A DNA stretch of 21,559 nt from positions 1 through 21,559 of the IMG/VR virus record IMGVR_UViG_3300047548_000327. One strand, given 5' to 3'. Positions 4,074 to 14,616 of this stretch are shown piece by piece. How positions within the stretch are numbered: position 1 is the first letter of the stretch; the number at the start of each line of letters is the position of its first letter. The DNA is from a virus. A program made the translations under genes and the position numbers. The notes beneath the pieces are model-generated. The model did no database searches and was not told where the DNA came from. It was given only the letters and a program-made list of their open reading frames with translations.

Positions 4074-4951
4074 CAGTCGTCCTTTGCAGCAATGGTGGTG
4101 TAGTGGATTTTGACACCATGCAATCGGGCATCGACGGCGAGCGTATCCGACACGTTGGCAGGAACGCGCTTAACCTGAAACACCACCAAGTCCTCGGCAG
4201 CGGGTGAACTGGCCACCGTCACCGGAGAAGTTTCGGCTGTGATATACAAGGTATTGGTCGATCCACCGACATCGGCAACAGTGACTTCCGTGCCGAATAT
4301 TGTGTCTAGGGCTTCGCCATTGCCAAGTGACATTGCTTCGATGGCCCAGACCACGCCGAAATTAGTCGTGGTCGCGCCGTGGCTCCAGATGAATTGGCAG
4401 ACCAGTGTACCGGCGTTCCAGCTTTTCGGCATCTGAACAGCAAACTGGGCGAACTCCTGCGTAGCGGTGTCGAAGTCCAGCGTACGCAACATAACTTTAT
4501 TGGTCGCAGTCTCGACCGTGCCGATGCTTGCGCCGTTGGTGGTACGCGCGATCATGCCGCTGGCGGGCATCCAGATCGTCTGCTGGCCGATCACATCCGT
4601 GGTCTTGGCGAGGTTCACACCCTCCACGGCGACCGTACCGGCAGCCGAGCGCGTCAGCGTGGTGTCGCTGGCGTTGCCCAGTTCGATCCCGGCAAACTGC
4701 GGAGTGGACGCGGTGCCGAGCCCAAGGGTCGTGCGCTGGTCGGCGGTCGTTGCATCATCCAGCAGGGCACGGCCAACCGCCGTGCAAGTGATTTCTTCAA
4801 CCGCGCCCGCGCCTGCGGTCGCACGTCCGAGCAGCGTGTTAGTCGCCACCGTCAGGTCATGCTCGTCGTTCCAGTTGGACGGCCTCACCAGCGTGGTATC
4901 GCCGCCATCGGCCTTCGGTGACGTGAACTTATGCTTGAGCGAGACGACCAT
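4073..4951 (-). CDS. Tail fibre-like protein (292 aa)
   Basis: The N-terminal segment (HKFTSPKADGGDTTLVRPSN, then WNDEH) is a recurrent opening of phage tail-fibre and virion proteins. It is followed by ADQRTTLGLGTASTPQFAGI and SDTTLTRSAAGTVAVEGV, which resemble the short repeated fibre-shaft motifs (LGLGT.atPqFagie.G.a.dTtl.R...G.laveG). From about residue 120 the protein changes to a beta-rich globular region (LVCQFIWSHGATTTNFGVVW) ending in a hydrophobic strand-rich tail, a plausible receptor-binding or trimerisation tip. The gene overlaps the upstream stop by one base (TAATG at 4951). The fibre call is moderately confident and the ligand is unknown. Confidence 0.75.
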   Translation of the reverse strand: MVVSLKHKFTSPKADGGDTTLVRPSNWNDEHDLTVATNTLLGRATAGAGAVEEITCTAVGRALLDDATTADQRTTLGLGTASTPQFAGIELGNASDTTLTRSAAGTVAVEGVNLAKTTDVIGQQTIWMPASGMIARTTNGASIGTVETATNKVMLRTLDFDTATQEFAQFAVQMPKSWNAGTLVCQFIWSHGATTTNFGVVWAIEAMSLGNGEALDTIFGTEVTVADVGGSTNTLYITAETSPVTVASSPAAEDLVVFQVKRVPANVSDTLAVDARLHGVKIHYTTIAAKDD

Positions 4952-5358
4952 TACCTAGCACTCCATTTCGGGCGAATATCGAACAGGTCAGGCCGGGCGT
5001 TGATCCCTTGCAGGATACCGAGCGGGTGCGTACCGCCTACGCAGAACATCACATGGCAGTAGCCGCGCTCGCCGCCCGCGTCCGGATGACCCTCGCAGAC
5101 CTTGCAGTAGAACTTGTAGATGTCGGGCGTGCCCTTGTCGCGCTGCTCCGCGTTGGAATACCACGCGTCGATGTCGAGGTTGTCGGGCTTGCGGCAGCAG
5201 TCGTGCTTGGCCTTCTGCTGGATGTAGACCAGCCACTTGCCCTTGCCCGCGTTCTCAAGGATGCCGCGCACAGTGAGATAGGGCACGCGCGGGCACGCCT
5301 GAACGTGCTCGCTGTCAAGCGGCTCCCACGCAAGGGTTCTTGGCTGGTTGGTCAACAT
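4951..5358 (-). CDS. Cys-rich protein encoded within the tail operon (135 aa), unknown
   Basis: Nine potential metal ligands stand out: Cys22, Cys54-Cys55, a YCKVCEGH group (Cys85, Cys88, His91) and GYCHVMFC (Cys101, His102, Cys106). The spacing suggests a structural zinc site. The N-terminal half (MLTNQPRTLAWEPLDSEHVQ) and the aromatic middle (WLVYIQQKAKHDCC) do not match a family I know. It overlaps both neighbours by a single base (TAATG at 4951, TGATG at 5358), so it belongs to the virion operon. It could be a minor virion protein or a small host-takeover protein carried in the late operon. Composition differs clearly from the surrounding Thr/Gly-rich structural proteins. Confidence 0.65.
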   Translation of the reverse strand: MLTNQPRTLAWEPLDSEHVQACPRVPYLTVRGILENAGKGKWLVYIQQKAKHDCCRKPDNLDIDAWYSNAEQRDKGTPDIYKFYCKVCEGHPDAGGERGYCHVMFCVGGTHPLGILQGINARPDLFDIRPKWSAR

Positions 5359-5780
5359 CAGGTCAGGGTCTGAACGCTAGCGCCAAAATCAAGGGTGAAC
5401 GTCTCGCCGTTGCCGACCGCAAAGGTCGTGCCGTAATCCCAGTAGGCAATCAGCGGATCGGCAGTCGGGGTGGTCGGCGTGTCGTCGTAGATCGACACAT
5501 AGCGTGCGGAGGTGGACCAGTCGGCGGCACCCGCCGTCCAAGTGTAATCGACCGCCGTCATCGTGACCGTGCCGCCCGTGCGGGTGGCGTCATTGTTGAT
5601 GTCCGCTGCGGTGTAACCGGTGCCGGTGATCTGGGTCAAATTGGCCACGGTGGTGTCGGACGCGACGACAGGCGCGTCAGTGTGGATCACGGCACGCACG
5701 GTATCGGTCGTGCCGAACAGGTCCACTTCCTTGTTGTAGAGGACCTGAACGAAGTTGTCGTACTTGACGTAGGTAGCCAT
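5358..5780 (-). CDS. Putative virion structural protein (140 aa)
   Basis: Opens MATYVKYDNFVQVLYNKEVD and continues as a Thr/Asp/Ala-rich beta protein (TDTVRAVIHTDAPVVASDTT, YTWTAGAADWSTSARYVSIY, FTLDFGASVQTLT). The N-terminus 'y.kfdnFv..l..k..dL..dt..v.L.....a' is a pattern seen in small phage structural proteins, possibly head decoration or tail components, but I cannot name the family. A reasonable AGGAG-like site lies upstream (GGAGACGCCCGC before ATG 5780). Overlap with the Cys-rich gene is TGATG. Confidence 0.65.
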   Translation of the reverse strand: MATYVKYDNFVQVLYNKEVDLFGTTDTVRAVIHTDAPVVASDTTVANLTQITGTGYTAADINNDATRTGGTVTMTAVDYTWTAGAADWSTSARYVSIYDDTPTTPTADPLIAYWDYGTTFAVGNGETFTLDFGASVQTLT

Positions 5781-5792
5781 GCGGGCGTCTCC

Positions 5793-6038
5793 TTAGCAGT
5801 TCCACGCTCTCAACGACTTGTTGATACGCGAATTGGGGTCGTTGGCCGTTTTCTTGGACGTGAGCTTTTTCTTCATGCCGGACATTCGAGCGCAAAACGA
5901 CTTCTTACGCGGGCCACCCTCGGGCTGCGGCGGCTTGAGGTTCATCCCCTGCTTCTTCGCAGACGCACGCCCCTTGGCGTTGAGCCCACCGTTTTTATTT
6001 TGGCCTTCTTTTCGTTGCCATGCCGGTGTCTTGGCCAT
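5793..6038 (-). CDS. Small basic phage protein, DUF6321-like (81 aa)
   Basis: Sequence elements are MAKTPAWQRKEGQNKNGGLN, AKGRASAKKQGMNLKPP, KSFCARMSGMKKKLTS and a tail INKSLRAWNC. These match my recollection of a highly basic small phage protein family (DUF6321 type; 'M.KTPAWQRkeGkn..GGLNakGraSak', 'rrkSFCaRM.GM', 'slr.WdC') whose function is unknown. Lys/Arg richness suggests nucleic-acid contact. Start: two ATGs in a row lie at 6041 and 6038. The GGAG at 6047-6044 is only two bases from the first and five from the second, so 6038 is preferred. It begins just inside the end of the neighbouring gene's stop region (6047). Confidence 0.8.
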   Translation of the reverse strand: MAKTPAWQRKEGQNKNGGLNAKGRASAKKQGMNLKPPQPEGGPRKKSFCARMSGMKKKLTSKKTANDPNSRINKSLRAWNC

Positions 6039-6046
6039 CATTGCTC

Positions 6047-6436
6047 CTAGCGAGTGTCGATCCACAGCATGTTGAGGGTGGGGTTCTCGGGCGGCGAGGT
6101 GCCGACATGGATGCGGACCTGCGCGAGATCGTCGTAGATCGCGTCTCGGATCGACTGGGCGGTGATGCGAAGCTCGACGCGGGTTCCCGGCTGGAACGCA
6201 GCCGCCTGCGTGTTCTCCTGCGCGCGCGTGATGGTGAGCATGTCACCGGTACGGCCCGTGACCTTGACGATCTCCATGCGCCGGTCGGTCGCAATGAGCG
6301 TGGCGTAATAGTATTGACCGGCGACCAGCACAGGAAAATAACTTCCTGTGCCGCTGGCAACGAACATGCTTCCGGCCCCGGCAGACAGATCAGCCGCCAG
6401 TGTGGTCGCTACGTTATTTGCCAGCACAACCGTCAT
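6047..6436 (-). CDS. Conserved phage tail-region protein (129 aa)
   Basis: MTVVLANNVATTLAADLSAG, then SMFVASGTGSYFPVLVAGQYYYATL, EIVKVTGRTGDMLTITRAQE, FQPGTRVELRITAQ. This layout (short leader, 'tsl.V.sgtg..FP....g.yf.atl', 'EIVkVt.r.GdtltV.RaqegT.a..f..Gd.velR.Ta') is a well-known small phage protein usually encoded beside tail fibres, with no biochemical role that I know. It probably adopts a beta-rich virion-associated fold. It overlaps the upstream gene by ATGA (6433-6436). No signal peptide or membrane segment. Confidence 0.75.
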   Translation of the reverse strand: MTVVLANNVATTLAADLSAGAGSMFVASGTGSYFPVLVAGQYYYATLIATDRRMEIVKVTGRTGDMLTITRAQENTQAAAFQPGTRVELRITAQSIRDAIYDDLAQVRIHVGTSPPENPTLNMLWIDTR

Positions 6437-10971: not shown

Positions 10972-11066
10972 TAAGTTCCAACAGGGAGGAAGTGCCCAGC
11001 GGGGGTGGACAGACCGCGAGGCACTATTAGTATGGCATGACGTGTGGTCATACGCAAGGGGTTGTG

Positions 11067-13325
11067 TCAGGTCCAGCCATGGGCCGAAATCGGCCTGATA
11101 TCCCGCCGCAGGTGCTGGTACATCGCGTCTCCCCCCACGCTGTTGATATGCAGCATGAGATACTGGAGGGCTTCCGCAACGTGCGAGTGCTTGTTCTTGT
11201 CGATCAGGTTGTCGCCGGTGGGCTTGTACCGATACCCGCCCATCATCGCCGCCTTGAGGTGCGTACACCCCGGATCGACCAGAAACGCCGGGTCGCCGTC
11301 CACCTGCCGCATGAGGAAGTCGTCCACCGCGCTGATGCGCGCCGAGATGTTGTTGGTCTTGGCCGGGATGACCTTGAACCCCTCGGCCCGCACGATGTCC
11401 ACCGCGCTGCGCTCGTCGGTCTGCGACCTCGCCGTTCCCGCCGGATCGACCACCACCATCACCGGGCAGCCGGTGAACCGCTCGTACAGCAACGGCTTGA
11501 GCATGGTCCGCACGAACCGCTGGATGCCCATGTCGTAGCTGACGCATTCCGCCATTATGAGCGAGCGTCCGCGCGGGTCCTGCTGTCCGATCACGGCTGC
11601 TGGCGTGAGCCCAAGGTCCATACCGACGATGACAGGGCGAGTGCCATTAGTGATTGGGCGCAGGCTGCTGTGAGCCATATGGTAGTCTGGGCGGAAATAC
11701 TTGTAGACAGGCATACCAGCGAGGCTAAGGCCATATTCGCCGTCAATATAGACGCGGATGTATTCCTCGGATCGGCCTTGGGTGTCATAGTATCCTTCCG
11801 GAAGATTCTCGATATTCTCGGCATAGGCGCTGCGCCCTGACGGCTGCTTGAACACCTCCCAGCCGTTGTCATTGGGGGAAACCCCGTCAGCAGGGTCGAG
11901 ATGCTCCATCTGGTAGTAAAACCACGTATCCATGGTCGGGGGGTTGGTATCCATGAAGATACCGTGCCATGTCGGACCGCCGTCCTTGGCGCTCGGGAAA
12001 CGACCTACACGCTTGGACAAAGCGTCGATGATATCGGGGTGGATGTCCCGGCACTCGTTTACCCATGCAAACGTGGCTTCCAGTGAGTTGAGGTTCGCCA
12101 CATCATCCGCATCATCAAGGGCGCGGAACATCACTTCGCACTCTACGTCACCGATGGACAGGTGATACGTCTTGGTCGTCTTGAGATAAACTCCGCAGGG
12201 GCCGGGAGGAAACCAATCCAAAAATGATTTTATTGTCGTATCTTGCAACTGGCGGGCGGTCTGTCGAACCACGATGCAGCGCGTCCTGCGCTTCCCATTC
12301 TGATCCGGCTTTTGCATTGAAGCTCGTCGAATAACTTCAAAGCAGCAAGTAACACTCTTACCGCTGTTGTGATGGATAGCACCATCCACGGTCACATAAT
12401 TGTTCGTATCCAAAACTTGCATATCCCAATACGACCGCTTGACGGTCTCACGCTCGACCGCTAAGATGGTCCCGTTGGATATGGAGCTTATGTATGAACG
12501 AGAACACGCAGCGGATTGTCGCCCTTTCGGACGGAACCCGTTCGTCAATTGAGATTGCCAAGCTTGTAGGTCTGTCGCCACGTTACGTGCGGAAAGTGAT
12601 GCTGCGGCTGAACCTGCCACGCTGGGGCGAAGGAGCGCAGCCGGGAAAAGAAAATCACCAATACAAGACCGGGCGGCGGATAGACCTCGACGGATATGTT
12701 CTCGTAACCGCGCCGAAAGACCATCCGTATGCGCGTCAACGCACAAATCGCTCTGGCAAGCTGATATACGAACACCGGCTTGTCCTCGAACAACATCTTG
12801 GTCGATACCTGCTTCCTGAAGAAGTCGTAGACCATATCGACGGGCTGACGCTGCATAACGCGCCAGAAAACCTACGGCTGTTTGCGTCGAATGGGGAGCA
12901 TCTTGCAACGACAACGACTGGCCGCACAAAGCTCTGGTCAGCGCAGGGGCGTCAGAACATAGGGACAAGGACTGACCGGGGGAAAGTTCTTCAACGCGTC
13001 GATAGCTACGGCCAGCGGCGTAAGTCAGGTGATGTCCGCTTGCGGCAAATACTCCTTGCCGCGTTACAACTCGGTACAGATAGTCCGTTCCTTTCGGGAA
13101 CGCTCCACCACACCAAGAAAGCTGGAATTGACCTGTCTTTGCGTTCCACGATACAACGCGCATTGGACGATCTATACGCCAGATGGGCATAGGCCCATAC
13201 TCCGTCAAAACCTCCGTATCAGGTGCAACACAGCCGACAGGCCCCATGAGCACGCGCATCCGCGCGTTGCTCTCCATGAACAGTTTGCCGGTGGGCGGCG
13301 GGGTATAATTGATCTCAATCGCCAT
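11067..13325 (-). CDS. terL: Terminase large subunit (TerL) containing an in-frame intein
   Basis: TerL is the ATPase and nuclease that packages DNA into proheads. The 752-codon ORF is 463 residues of extein plus a 289-residue intein. The extein starts MAIEINYTPPPTGKLFMESN, and its P-loop is split as GPVG (28-31) | intein | SGKS (321-324). Later motifs are intact: Walker B-like FAWVNE at 419-424, motif III MDTNPP at 458-463, and an RNase H-like nuclease with VGMDLGLT (Asp570), MVVVDPAG (Asp627) and HSHVAEALQYL (Glu718 where an Asp is usual). Without splicing the ATPase would lack a P-loop, so splicing is needed for packaging. The ORF begins eight bases after the stop of a 63-aa gene and ends before a strong terminator. 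TerL assignment is strong. Confidence 0.95.
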   Translation of the reverse strand: MAIEINYTPPPTGKLFMESNARMRVLMGPVGCVAPDTEVLTEYGPMPIWRIDRPMRVVSWNAKTGQFQLSWCGGAFPKGTDYLYRVVTRQGVFAASGHHLTYAAGRSYRRVEELSPGQSLSLCSDAPALTRALCGQSLSLQDAPHSTQTAVGFLARYAASARRYGLRLLQEAGIDQDVVRGQAGVRISACQSDLCVDAHTDGLSARLREHIRRGLSAARSCIGDFLFPAALLRPSVAGSAAASLSARNVATDLQAWQSQLTNGFRPKGRQSAACSRSYISSISNGTILAVERETVKRSYWDMQVLDTNNYVTVDGAIHHNSGKSVTCCFEVIRRASMQKPDQNGKRRTRCIVVRQTARQLQDTTIKSFLDWFPPGPCGVYLKTTKTYHLSIGDVECEVMFRALDDADDVANLNSLEATFAWVNECRDIHPDIIDALSKRVGRFPSAKDGGPTWHGIFMDTNPPTMDTWFYYQMEHLDPADGVSPNDNGWEVFKQPSGRSAYAENIENLPEGYYDTQGRSEEYIRVYIDGEYGLSLAGMPVYKYFRPDYHMAHSSLRPITNGTRPVIVGMDLGLTPAAVIGQQDPRGRSLIMAECVSYDMGIQRFVRTMLKPLLYERFTGCPVMVVVDPAGTARSQTDERSAVDIVRAEGFKVIPAKTNNISARISAVDDFLMRQVDGDPAFLVDPGCTHLKAAMMGGYRYKPTGDNLIDKNKHSHVAEALQYLMLHINSVGGDAMYQHLRRDIRPISAHGWT
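12439..12467 (+). promoter_or_regulatory. Sigma70-like promoter for the antisense HNH gene
   Basis: TTGACG (12439-12444), a 17-base spacer and TAAGAT (12462-12467) sit about 27 bases before the HNH start. Five of six -35 bases and four of six -10 bases match consensus. The DNA simultaneously encodes residues about 287-296 of the TerL precursor, within the C-terminal splicing domain. The expected start is near 12474, giving a leader of about 20 bases that holds the GGAG ribosome site. Confidence 0.65.
12494..13192 (+). CDS. HNH homing endonuclease encoded antisense within the terL intein
   Basis: This 232-aa protein begins with a helix-turn-helix-like segment (SIEIAKLVGLSPRYVRKVML, 18-37) and a GAQPGKENHQYKTGRR linker. 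An HNH_3-type core follows: YVLVTAPKDHPYA (68-80), YEHRLVLEQHLGR (92-104), VVDHIDG (111-117) and NAPENLRLFASNGEH (122-136). Likely metal and catalytic residues are His94, Asp113-His114, Asn126 and His137. A C-terminal region (residues 140-232, with VRLRQILLAALQLGTDSPFL) follows and is ordered in appearance. GGAG lies seven bases before ATG 12494, and a promoter lies upstream. The whole gene is complementary to residues 45-278 of the TerL precursor, codon position 1 facing position 1. It probably cuts intein-less terL at the P-loop to spread the intein; this is inferred, not shown. Confidence 0.92.
   Translation: MNENTQRIVALSDGTRSSIEIAKLVGLSPRYVRKVMLRLNLPRWGEGAQPGKENHQYKTGRRIDLDGYVLVTAPKDHPYARQRTNRSGKLIYEHRLVLEQHLGRYLLPEEVVDHIDGLTLHNAPENLRLFASNGEHLATTTTGRTKLWSAQGRQNIGTRTDRGKVLQRVDSYGQRRKSGDVRLRQILLAALQLGTDSPFLSGTLHHTKKAGIDLSLRSTIQRALDDLYARWA
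13183..13198 (+). other. Perfect stem-loop overlapping the HNH stop codon
   Basis: ATGGGC-ATAG-GCCCAT forms a 6-bp perfect stem with a four-base loop that contains the HNH stop codon TAG. No T-run follows, so it is not a classical terminator. It lies in DNA encoding TerL precursor residues 43-48, just after intein block A. It could affect HNH mRNA stability or be a chance palindrome. Confidence 0.4.
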
Positions 13326-13332
13326 GGATGGG

Positions 13333-13524
13333 TCAATGCGGCTTTCTCAGGCCGTCCTCGTAATCCTCGCGCCGGTCATAGGCGTGATGGGTGATAATCT
13401 TGTCGTCGTCACAGTCGATCTCAATATCGGGGTCGCACCAGCAGGAACCATCGGCATCGAAGACGTGTTTGTAGAGGTCGTTCTGCGGAGTGATGTGATA
13501 AACCGGAATGGGGTTCTTAGGCAT
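13333..13524 (-). CDS. Small acidic protein upstream of terL (63 aa)
   Basis: MPKNPIPVYHITPQNDLYKH leads into an acidic Cys-containing stretch (FDADGSCWCDPDIEIDCDDD) and ends HHAYDRREDYEDGLRKPH. The pattern '..H.t..h....C.CdP.ie....... v.HhafD.RE' is common in small phage proteins near terminase genes, without known function. Two ATGs (13530, 13524) are possible. GGAGG abuts the first and is six bases from the second, so 13524 is chosen. It overlaps the upstream gene end by eight bases. Confidence 0.7.
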   Translation of the reverse strand: MPKNPIPVYHITPQNDLYKHVFDADGSCWCDPDIEIDCDDDKIITHHAYDRREDYEDGLRKPH

Positions 13525-13747
13525 AGACATCCTCCAGCAGGGTGATCAGAAAGTATGTTCCGCGTTTGCGCGAGCGGACAATCCGTGTCTGGTAGCTGGC
13601 CCCATGTTCCGCCAAGCTGCGCTCAACCTCGCGGGCTTCCACGGAAGAATATATCTGGGTGATGTACTGGCCGGTGGAGGGATTCTCCACGAACAGGCTC
13701 GAAAGGGCTTCAGGCAGGCTGGTAATCGTCGTCATCGGAAGGCTCAT
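13517..13747 (-). CDS. Hypothetical protein between terminase genes (76 aa)
   Basis: The sequence MSLPMTTITSLPEALSSLFV is followed by NPSTGQYITQIYSSVEAREV and a basic beta-rich tail (TRIVRSRKRGTYFLITLLED). No motif is recognised. It overlaps the small-terminase candidate by 38 bases at its start, or 26 if ATG 13735 is used, and the 63-aa gene by eight bases at its end. The position suggests a packaging accessory or unrelated small protein. Confidence 0.6.
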   Translation of the reverse strand: MSLPMTTITSLPEALSSLFVENPSTGQYITQIYSSVEAREVERSLAEHGASYQTRIVRSRKRGTYFLITLLEDVYA

Positions 13748-14198
13748 GGTCGATTACCTGCGGCTTCTCTTCGTAGCCGTATTCCGGCTCGGGCGCGTTG
13801 AGGTTAATGGTGATCTTCACACCGCCACCGGCTGTGGCCTCGACCTCGTTCTTGGGCTCCAGCCCGCCCCACTTGACCGTCTGCTTGATAAGATCGGCTT
13901 TGACTGCGGCTGAGACATCGGGTGAATGGATCAGCGTCCAACTGGTGACAAGAAGTTCCTCTGCCTGTGCCCGGGCCTTCATCCGGAAGGTCAGCCCTTT
14001 GTCACGGACCTCCTCGCGGTAATGCTCCACCTTCTTGATGAACACCGGGTCCTTGCTGAACCCGGAGATGTCGTCGGTGGTGAGCCGGTGCCGCTGGAGC
14101 AATTCCTCCATCGCTTCGCCCGAACCTTCCAAGAGGAGGGCCATGTCGAATGCCAAGCGGTCGGTCCACTTGGTGTAGTTGAACGGGCTCAGGTCCAT
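13710..14198 (-). CDS. Putative terminase small subunit (162 aa)
   Basis: The protein starts MDLSPFNYTKWTDRLAFDMA and contains a probable helix-turn-helix (ELLQRHRLTTDDISGFSKDP, VFIKKVEHYREEV), then a helical segment TFRMKARAQAEELLVTSWTL with IHSPDVSAAVKADLIKQTVK, and a basic/acidic C-terminal tail with VKITINLNAPEPEYGYEE. This layout, with a DNA-binding N-terminus, a coiled central region that could oligomerise and a disordered tail, fits small terminases that recognise the packaging site. It is the first gene of the leftward operon, two small genes ahead of terL. The frame opens upstream with a TTG at 14234, but ATG 14198 is chosen although its ribosome site is poor. TerS identity is inferred from layout and position. 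Confidence 0.75.
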   Translation of the reverse strand: MDLSPFNYTKWTDRLAFDMALLLEGSGEAMEELLQRHRLTTDDISGFSKDPVFIKKVEHYREEVRDKGLTFRMKARAQAEELLVTSWTLIHSPDVSAAVKADLIKQTVKWGGLEPKNEVEATAGGGVKITINLNAPEPEYGYEEKPQVIDHEPSDDDDYQPA

Positions 14199-14258
14199 CC
14201 GGGGAGGATATGTTTTCGGGTGGGTGGTTGTCAATCGTCAGTGGGCTGAGGGCGTAAG

Positions 14259-14346
14259 CTGTAAAGATTATACACGTAGAAGTTGAAATGGAAAAATGGG
14301 GGCCTGCTGTAAATTTTACTCGCGTAAAAGTTGAAATGGAAAAATG
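14259..14346 (-). repeat. Two 40-bp direct repeats (48-bp period), candidate leftward promoter/operator pair
   Basis: Copies lie at 14259-14298 and 14307-14346 and match at 34 of 40 positions. Their last 19 bases (AAGTTGAAATGGAAAAATG on the plus strand) are identical. Read leftward, copy 1 carries a perfect TATAAT (14272-14267) and copy 2 a TAAAAT two bases away from the equivalent place, each preceded by CATTTTTCCATTTCAACTT in place of a normal -35. Copy 2 also holds the dyad TTTTAC-TCGC-GTAAAA. This suggests tandem activator-dependent promoters for the terminase operon, or a repressor operator pair. Confidence 0.55.
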
Positions 14347-14526
14347 ACCCTGTAGTGAAACAGTCTGCCTACAAATGGCCGGGGCCTATGCCAAGCCAAT
14401 CCATGTGCCCCCCGGAGTACCCCTCCCTCAGCCTCTTTCGCGTCATCGTCATCCGCTTTTGCGCCGCGCATGGCGCGCGTGGCCGCACACTAGACAACGC
14501 CTAAACCCGCCTGAAAACGAGCTGAT

Positions 14527-14555
14527 TTGACAGTCTGGGACGTTCCTGCCATATT
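14527..14555 (+). promoter_or_regulatory. Sigma70-like early promoter, rightward
   Basis: A perfect TTGACA (14527-14532), 17-base spacer and CATATT (14550-14555; four of six) give a probable start near 14562 and a leader of about 75 bases before the 90-aa gene. It faces away from the terminase operon, as expected for the early rightward promoter. Confidence 0.65.
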
Positions 14556-14582
14556 GGGCTCATCGAAGCACACCGCTTCGGT

Positions 14583-14616
14583 GGCCCCCAAAAGGGCCGG
14601 GTCAACCAAGGCCCTT
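14583..14616 (+). promoter_or_regulatory. Mutually exclusive hairpins in the early mRNA leader
   Basis: Three segments compete: GGCCC (14583-14587), AAGGGCC (14592-14598) and GGCCCTT (14610-14616). The second can pair with the first (5 bp, 6-base loop) or with the third (7 bp, 11-base loop). The second hairpin ends about 20 bases before the 90-aa gene start. This could be an attenuator or protein-binding leader, but there is no T-run and the function is speculative. Confidence 0.3.

Follow-up and report, generated by a model that had tools for sequence, protein, structure and literature searches.

A predicted mobile intein in phage terL genes with a putative HNH homing endonuclease encoded on its opposite strand

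A terL precursor gene split within its Walker A motif

The window, the whole 21,559-nt (21.6-kb) virus record that we analysed, carries a TerL gene on its minus strand, the product of which matched the profiles of the PHROG 2 terminase large subunit (5.7e-24) and the PBSX-family TerL (6.8e-8). The Walker A motif of this TerL is split by an intein as GPVG^SGKS (the caret marks the insertion point), and in intein-free relatives GPVGSGKS is continuous with no gap. The exteins and the intein form a single frame (Table 1). A complete intein with Cys1, blocks B and F, His-Asn and Ser+1 had been placed here by the sequence-only reading, and its coordinates and residues proved right in the sequence and in the alignment. 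Block B reads G..F.ASGHH, block F/G ends with VLDTNNYVTVDGAIHHN, and the C-terminal junction is HHN^S. C1, G284, H287, H288 and N289 were invariant in a 59-member alignment, while the +1 residue was almost always Ser, with Thr in four loci.

The window intein alone matched Pfam Intein_splicing weakly (0.0029), while 49 of the 59 family members matched it, the best with 1e-8, and a search of solved structures by sequence returned only weak matches to the intein. Its AlphaFold model showed a Hint fold, with pLDDT of 87–98 for residues 1–100 and about 250–289 and below 50 for residues 152–246. The best structural matches of the model were mini-inteins, including the Npu DnaB intein (2.3e-7, TM 0.82 of target). 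The insertion lies in frame within a conserved motif, and intein-free alleles exist in 80 relatives. From its residues, its fold and the selection described below, the TerL precursor is predicted to splice and to rebuild the Walker A loop.

Elsewhere in the window, two 41-nt direct copies (GCTGTAAA and TTGAAATGGAAAAATG; 85% identical, 48 nt start to start, positions 14258–14346) lie between two divergent gene blocks and are perhaps regulatory. An Amidase_2 protein (1.9e-21), encoded on the minus strand at 1689–2123, is probably the endolysin.

Table 1. Features of the terL locus in the window and the basis on which each was assigned
Feature	Position	Strand	Basis
terL precursor (intein and both exteins, same frame)	11067–13325	minus	752 aa, uninterrupted ORF; PHROG 2
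N-extein, ending ...MGPVG (first half of Walker A)	13233–13325	minus	sequence; intein-free relatives
Intein, 289 aa, Cys1 ... His-Asn, +1 Ser	12366–13232	minus	sequence, alignment, fold
N-terminal splicing domain, intein residues 1–100, block A/B, GHH	12933–13232	minus	AlphaFold beta-rich Hint fold
Intein linker, residues 103–246, complement of HTH and HNH core	12495–12926	minus	low pLDDT; relaxed
C-terminal splicing domain, residues 247–289, block F/G	12366–12494	minus	pLDDT 95–96; alignment
C-extein, starting SGKS (remainder of Walker A)	11070–12365	minus	ORF, sequence
HNH endonuclease gene, 232 aa and stop	12494–13192	plus	ORF; profile matches; structure model
N-terminal helix-turn-helix, HNH residues 3–38	12500–12607	plus	three helices, pLDDT 89–95; weak HTH Pfam matches
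HNH catalytic core, residues 60–140	12671–12913	plus	HNH_3; alignment; I-HmuI nearest structure
C-terminal helical third, HNH residues 145–232, over N-splicing domain	12926–13189	plus	pLDDT 79–97 by block
Sigma70-like promoter TTGACG-17-TAAGAT	12439–12467	plus	consensus match inside C-splicing-domain coding DNA
Shine-Dalgarno GGAG, 7 nt before HNH ATG (12494)	12483–12486	plus	family-wide enrichment

An HNH gene antisense to the intein

The plus strand opposite precursor residues 45–278 encodes an HNH protein, and the helix-turn-helix and core residues that the same reading had attributed to it were recovered in the ORF. The protein matched PHROG 10730 over residues 6–232 (1.7e-59) and Pfam HNH_3 (4.4e-8), and the HNH catalytic motif of homing endonucleases is present, with H94, D113, H114, N122 and N126 invariant in a 39-member alignment. 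Its structure model had a mean pLDDT of 89, and the C-terminal third in it was ordered and helical. Among solved structures, the model came nearest to the homing enzyme I-HmuI, with a probability of 0.98 and an E-value of only 0.079; comparison with I-HmuI yielded no structural counterpart for the C-terminal third. Searching solved structures with the HNH sequence gave one match, which was unrelated. In the overlap, codon positions pair 1-1, 2-3 and 3-2, and not one site can vary synonymously in the two frames at once, so every change alters at least one protein.

I-HmuI is itself encoded in an intron, and I-HmuI-like HNH endonucleases are typical of phage introns. The insert could accordingly be read as a group I or II intron with an HNH ORF, removed at the RNA level and open in the terL frame only incidentally. 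We regard this as very improbable and rejected it, because C1, His-Asn and the +1 Ser/Thr are conserved, the N-splicing domain is selected in the TerL frame and has a Hint fold, and the HNH gene is antisense to terL. Moreover, no Rfam intron RNA match was obtained in window positions 11000–14600 up to an E-value of 0.1.

Distribution of the arrangement and integrity of both frames

Protein searches, after removal of duplicates, gave 92 distinct loci of phages and prophages with this intein/antisense-HNH arrangement, the window included. Carriers are IMG/VR contigs, contigs of bacterial genomes (including Enterobacter cloacae and Acinetobacter), the genome of E. coli MEI003 and, among isolated phages, Pectobacterium phages (8 records, including Dickeya phage Setonix) and Pseudoalteromonas phage PHS3. 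The insertion is always in the P-loop, at G..G^(S/T)(G/S/T)K(S/T), with a single variant (GNR^SGKT, in L047), and the site is constant even where the exteins show no detectable similarity to the window TerL. Ten TerLs (L139, L143, L146, L151, L157, L161, L162, L168, L075 and L079) have the unusual Walker A G..G^STKT or SSKT instead of SGKS/T, likewise with this element at the usual insertion point. An apparent second N-terminal helix-turn-helix repeat was seen in the HNH proteins of L088, L164, L172 and L262, where the intein linker is correspondingly longer.

As GC-rich DNA does harbour long antisense ORFs, only one strand might be a gene, either with a chance or compositional ORF opposite the intein or with an HNH gene lying in a broken TerL. 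Neither frame was found broken in homologues, since both the HNH and the TerL-intein frames were open in 92 of 92 loci. We recoded the loci synonymously, counting HNH stops while the intein protein was kept and intein stops while HNH was kept; this null gave, per locus, 5.1 stops for HNH and 6.6 for the intein, against none observed. The same antisense register in the TerL C-extein contained 24 stops per 439 codons; among 87 genes, every open stretch fell short of 225 codons. A broken TerL would seem to be indicated in E. coli MEI003 (L262, chromosome positions 4076–6388), where PGAP calls TerL a pseudogene without its N-terminus and RefSeq has the HNH gene called. The frame is actually open, however, over 802 aa, with a 336-aa intein bearing C1 and HN^S. 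Together with the PHROG match of the HNH protein, and with the rate ratios relative to a control frame given below, these results refute a gene on one strand only, to which we give almost no credence.

Annotation was also incomplete in isolated phages: the TerL of PHS3 (L001) is truncated in its annotation, and the HNH genes of the Pectobacterium phages are unannotated.

An intein-based search found 80 loci, one of them with a truncated HNH. Beyond the truncated L156/L283, no HNH-free mini-intein of the family, with splicing blocks only, was found. At 207 aa, the intein of L156, on the same contig as L283, is the sole strongly shortened one; its linker deletion removes the helix-turn-helix of the HNH protein and keeps the splicing residues and an open TerL frame, which may hint that the helix-turn-helix region is dispensable for splicing.

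Selection in both frames

We classed substitutions by their effect in both frames, in close (2–15% divergence) and distant (15–28%) pairs of loci. The rate ratios come from a simple counting method on non-independent pairs, and as the pairs share ancestry the confidence intervals in brackets are too narrow for a strict reading. Opposite the linker, close pairs gave ratios of 0.23 (0.17–0.31) for HNH and 1.18 (0.86–1.68) for the intein. Opposite the N-splicing domain, the ratios were 0.29 (0.17–0.44) for HNH and 0.43 (0.25–0.70) for the intein. Distant pairs pointed in the same direction more weakly, with 0.34 and 0.54 for HNH and 1.55 and 0.70 for the intein. In the C-extein control, a fake antisense gene gave 1.55 (1.37–1.78) and TerL 0.24.

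HNH is under purifying selection throughout, and the intein only in its N-splicing domain. Selection is therefore not confined to one strand, both ratios being below 1 over the N-splicing domain. As both products are selected and conserved, the overprinting is real, as had been proposed. The further proposal, that each protein constrains the other over different parts, is supported with one refinement, namely that the two sides are constrained unequally. Both proteins are constrained, and thus both maintained, where the C-terminal third of HNH overlaps the N-splicing domain. The linker is unconstrained in the intein frame and appears to be filler, kept free of stops.

Putative expression signals inside the intein codons

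Upstream of the HNH start, a Shine-Dalgarno sequence was present in 66 of 89 loci, compared with 13.7 ± 2.8 in synonymous recodings of the intein codons; about a quarter of the loci have no clear one. A promoter with at least 9 of 12 consensus matches was found in 54 of 89 loci (null 19.2 ± 3.6) and was lacking in about 40%, these being consensus matches only. In L037 and L066 the promoter is perfect (12/12; TTGACA, 17 nt, TATAAT). The distance from promoter to HNH is similar across many loci, with the signals at a nearly fixed place, and Val-Lys, a common dipeptide of the intein, is the complement of CTTGAC. Since the promoter and the Shine-Dalgarno sequence lie within intein codons, HNH could be made independently of terL transcription. 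The counts support, statistically, separate transcription and translation of HNH from the embedded putative signals.

Sporadic occurrence and probable homing

The nearest relatives of the window TerL, 83–85% identical to it, are all intein-free. In a quick tree of TerL genes, 26 of them filled and 80 empty, supported branches forced at least five changes of state, and the parsimony minimum was seven. HNH proteins kept roughly 46–57% identity even between carriers for which blastp hardly recognises, or fails to recognise, a relationship of the TerLs.

As E. coli MEI003 and ET729 were too diverged for a conversion-tract test, we compared the filled L033 with the empty L220, over 97 nt upstream (to the contig end) and 1148 nt downstream. 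Their flanks differed only at -4, -1, +1, +2 and +31. Such differences beside the junction are expected if flanking DNA was copied along with the insertion (co-conversion); precise loss of the element is an alternative to gain, and the pair fits either. Within the window TerL family, the +1 Ser codon was AGY in 12 of 24 filled genes and in 7 of 80 empty ones, an excess which points to a +1 codon carried in by the element itself. Sporadic occurrence, horizontal spread and conversion-like differences in the flanks of the host element, as associated with homing, were all seen. Homing of the intein is thus supported, at the level of sequence comparison, by intein-free close relatives, by spread to one site across unrelated TerLs and by the filled/empty pair.

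In some phages, HNH proteins encoded beside terminase genes have a part in DNA packaging (Kala et al. 2014, as cited in PMC12613952), and the intein could likewise splice while its HNH protein serves the phage, for example in packaging, rather than homing. We think this unlikely, given that TerL genes 78–85% identical to that of the window do without the element, that unrelated TerLs share the site, that the junction differences are conversion-like and that the nearest structure is a homing enzyme. There is a similarly small chance that HNH is a homing enzyme by descent, now inactive, and that the observed pattern is a residue of past homing, as many intein endonucleases decay once fixed in the homing cycle (PMC8966425, PMC6801210). 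Purifying selection on HNH is strong in close pairs, however, its catalytic residues are invariant and almost no decayed copies were found.

Origin of the C-terminal third of the HNH protein

Outside the element, matches to HNH relatives cover the core but miss the C-terminal third, with plasmid matches ending by residue 165 and other phage matches by residue 177, and among phage records HNH residues 148–232 occurred only in loci with the intein. The HNH gene usually ends near intein residues 9 or 14. In L049, L174 and L175, the HNH protein lacks the C-terminal third and ends near intein residues 69–81, and in L047 a diverged C-terminal third ends at intein residue 23; these four loci possibly represent earlier stages of the overlap.

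Probably an intein linker first received the HNH core in antisense orientation, and the C-terminal third would have arisen later by overprinting the N-splicing domain. This order, linker first and N-domain extension second, would be the simplest reading of the direction of change.

Comparison with known systems

The Ssp GyrB intein carries its HNH domain in frame. In-frame nested endonucleases are the rule in inteins (PI-SceI, VMA, CDC21; PMC8966425, PMC6801210), and these share with the window intein the Hint fold, an endonuclease in the linker position and homing. Their endonuclease, however, is normally a domain of the same polypeptide, whereas here it is a separate protein of the opposite strand with its C-terminal third over the splicing domain. 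A nested in-frame endonuclease does not apply to the window, where the linker frame has no family match and is disordered and unconstrained. The Walker A inteins TerL1-a/b of mycobacteriophage TerL have been assayed for splicing and endonuclease activity, in a paper whose text contains neither "antisense" nor "opposite" (PMC5050341). TerL1-a sits between Lys and Thr; the insertion point in the window, between G and S, is three residues upstream of that.

The ShiLan domain of a phage DNA methylase, described in 2025, conceals an out-of-frame HNH (PMC11855218; PMC9957025). Like the window element, it is an insert open in the frame of the host gene, with HNH in another frame, sporadic and spread horizontally in phages. 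In ShiLan, HNH lies on the same strand (third frame), with no splicing domain (its authors reject both intein and intron) and no detectable RBS; the window element, by contrast, is a true intein with an antisense HNH and an evident promoter and Shine-Dalgarno sequence. A ShiLan-type hidden insert was rejected on account of the Hint fold and the antisense HNH. Antisense homing endonuclease genes are also known in nuclear rDNA group I introns of Porphyra (PMC2585584), where the endonuclease gene is likewise opposite to the strand of the host gene within a mobile element. There, the enzyme is of the His-Cys box type and the intron interrupts an rRNA gene, so that only one protein frame is constrained.

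The endonuclease is likewise separate in split-intein systems, but the window intein is contiguous and overlaps the HNH gene. Fractured genes with a free-standing endonuclease gene were reportedly described by Dassa et al. in 2009 (cited in PMC3229294). In such genes a split intein flanks the endonuclease gene. This arrangement was not found here, the TerL frame being uninterrupted in the window as well as across the remaining loci.

An incomplete literature search, by which prior art is possible, found no endonuclease encoded antisense to its intein. The claim of the sequence-only reading that no such case had been described could be checked in part within that search; an HNH hidden on the same strand of an insert that is not an intein has been published (PMC11855218).

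Proposed mechanism and implications

We consider it highly probable, from sequence and predicted structure, that the window element is a mobile intein and that its homing endonuclease comes from a gene of its own, written antisense in the intein DNA, and we classify the element as a mobile intein with a coding architecture that is new within the literature searched. In the mechanism that we propose, TerL would be translated as a precursor from which the Hint domain splices, restoring the Walker A loop, and HNH would be expressed on its own from the promoter and Shine-Dalgarno sequence antisense to the C-splicing domain. The HNH protein would recognise intein-free terL P-loop DNA through its helix-turn-helix and C-terminal domain and would cut or nick it. 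Repair from the filled copy would then insert the element of about 870 bp, as its distribution and the conversion signature suggest, and the insertion would split the HNH target, thereby protecting the carrier.

With somewhat less assurance, we also favour a broader view of these loci as a family in which intein and endonuclease occupy opposite strands, the C-terminal domain of the enzyme (probably DNA-binding) arose de novo over an ancient Hint domain, and the DNA for C-splicing also provides the antisense gene with its promoter and ribosome-binding site. Annotation software gets one gene of the pair wrong in some loci, which makes the arrangement a blind spot of annotation. Self-removal and self-spreading would here be packed into the two strands of less than 900 bp and kept across very distant phages, an unusually clean system for overlapping genes, the birth of a domain de novo and the homing cycle. 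If this view is true, the overlap may bind the enzyme to its intein, so that it decays more slowly than homing enzymes usually do.
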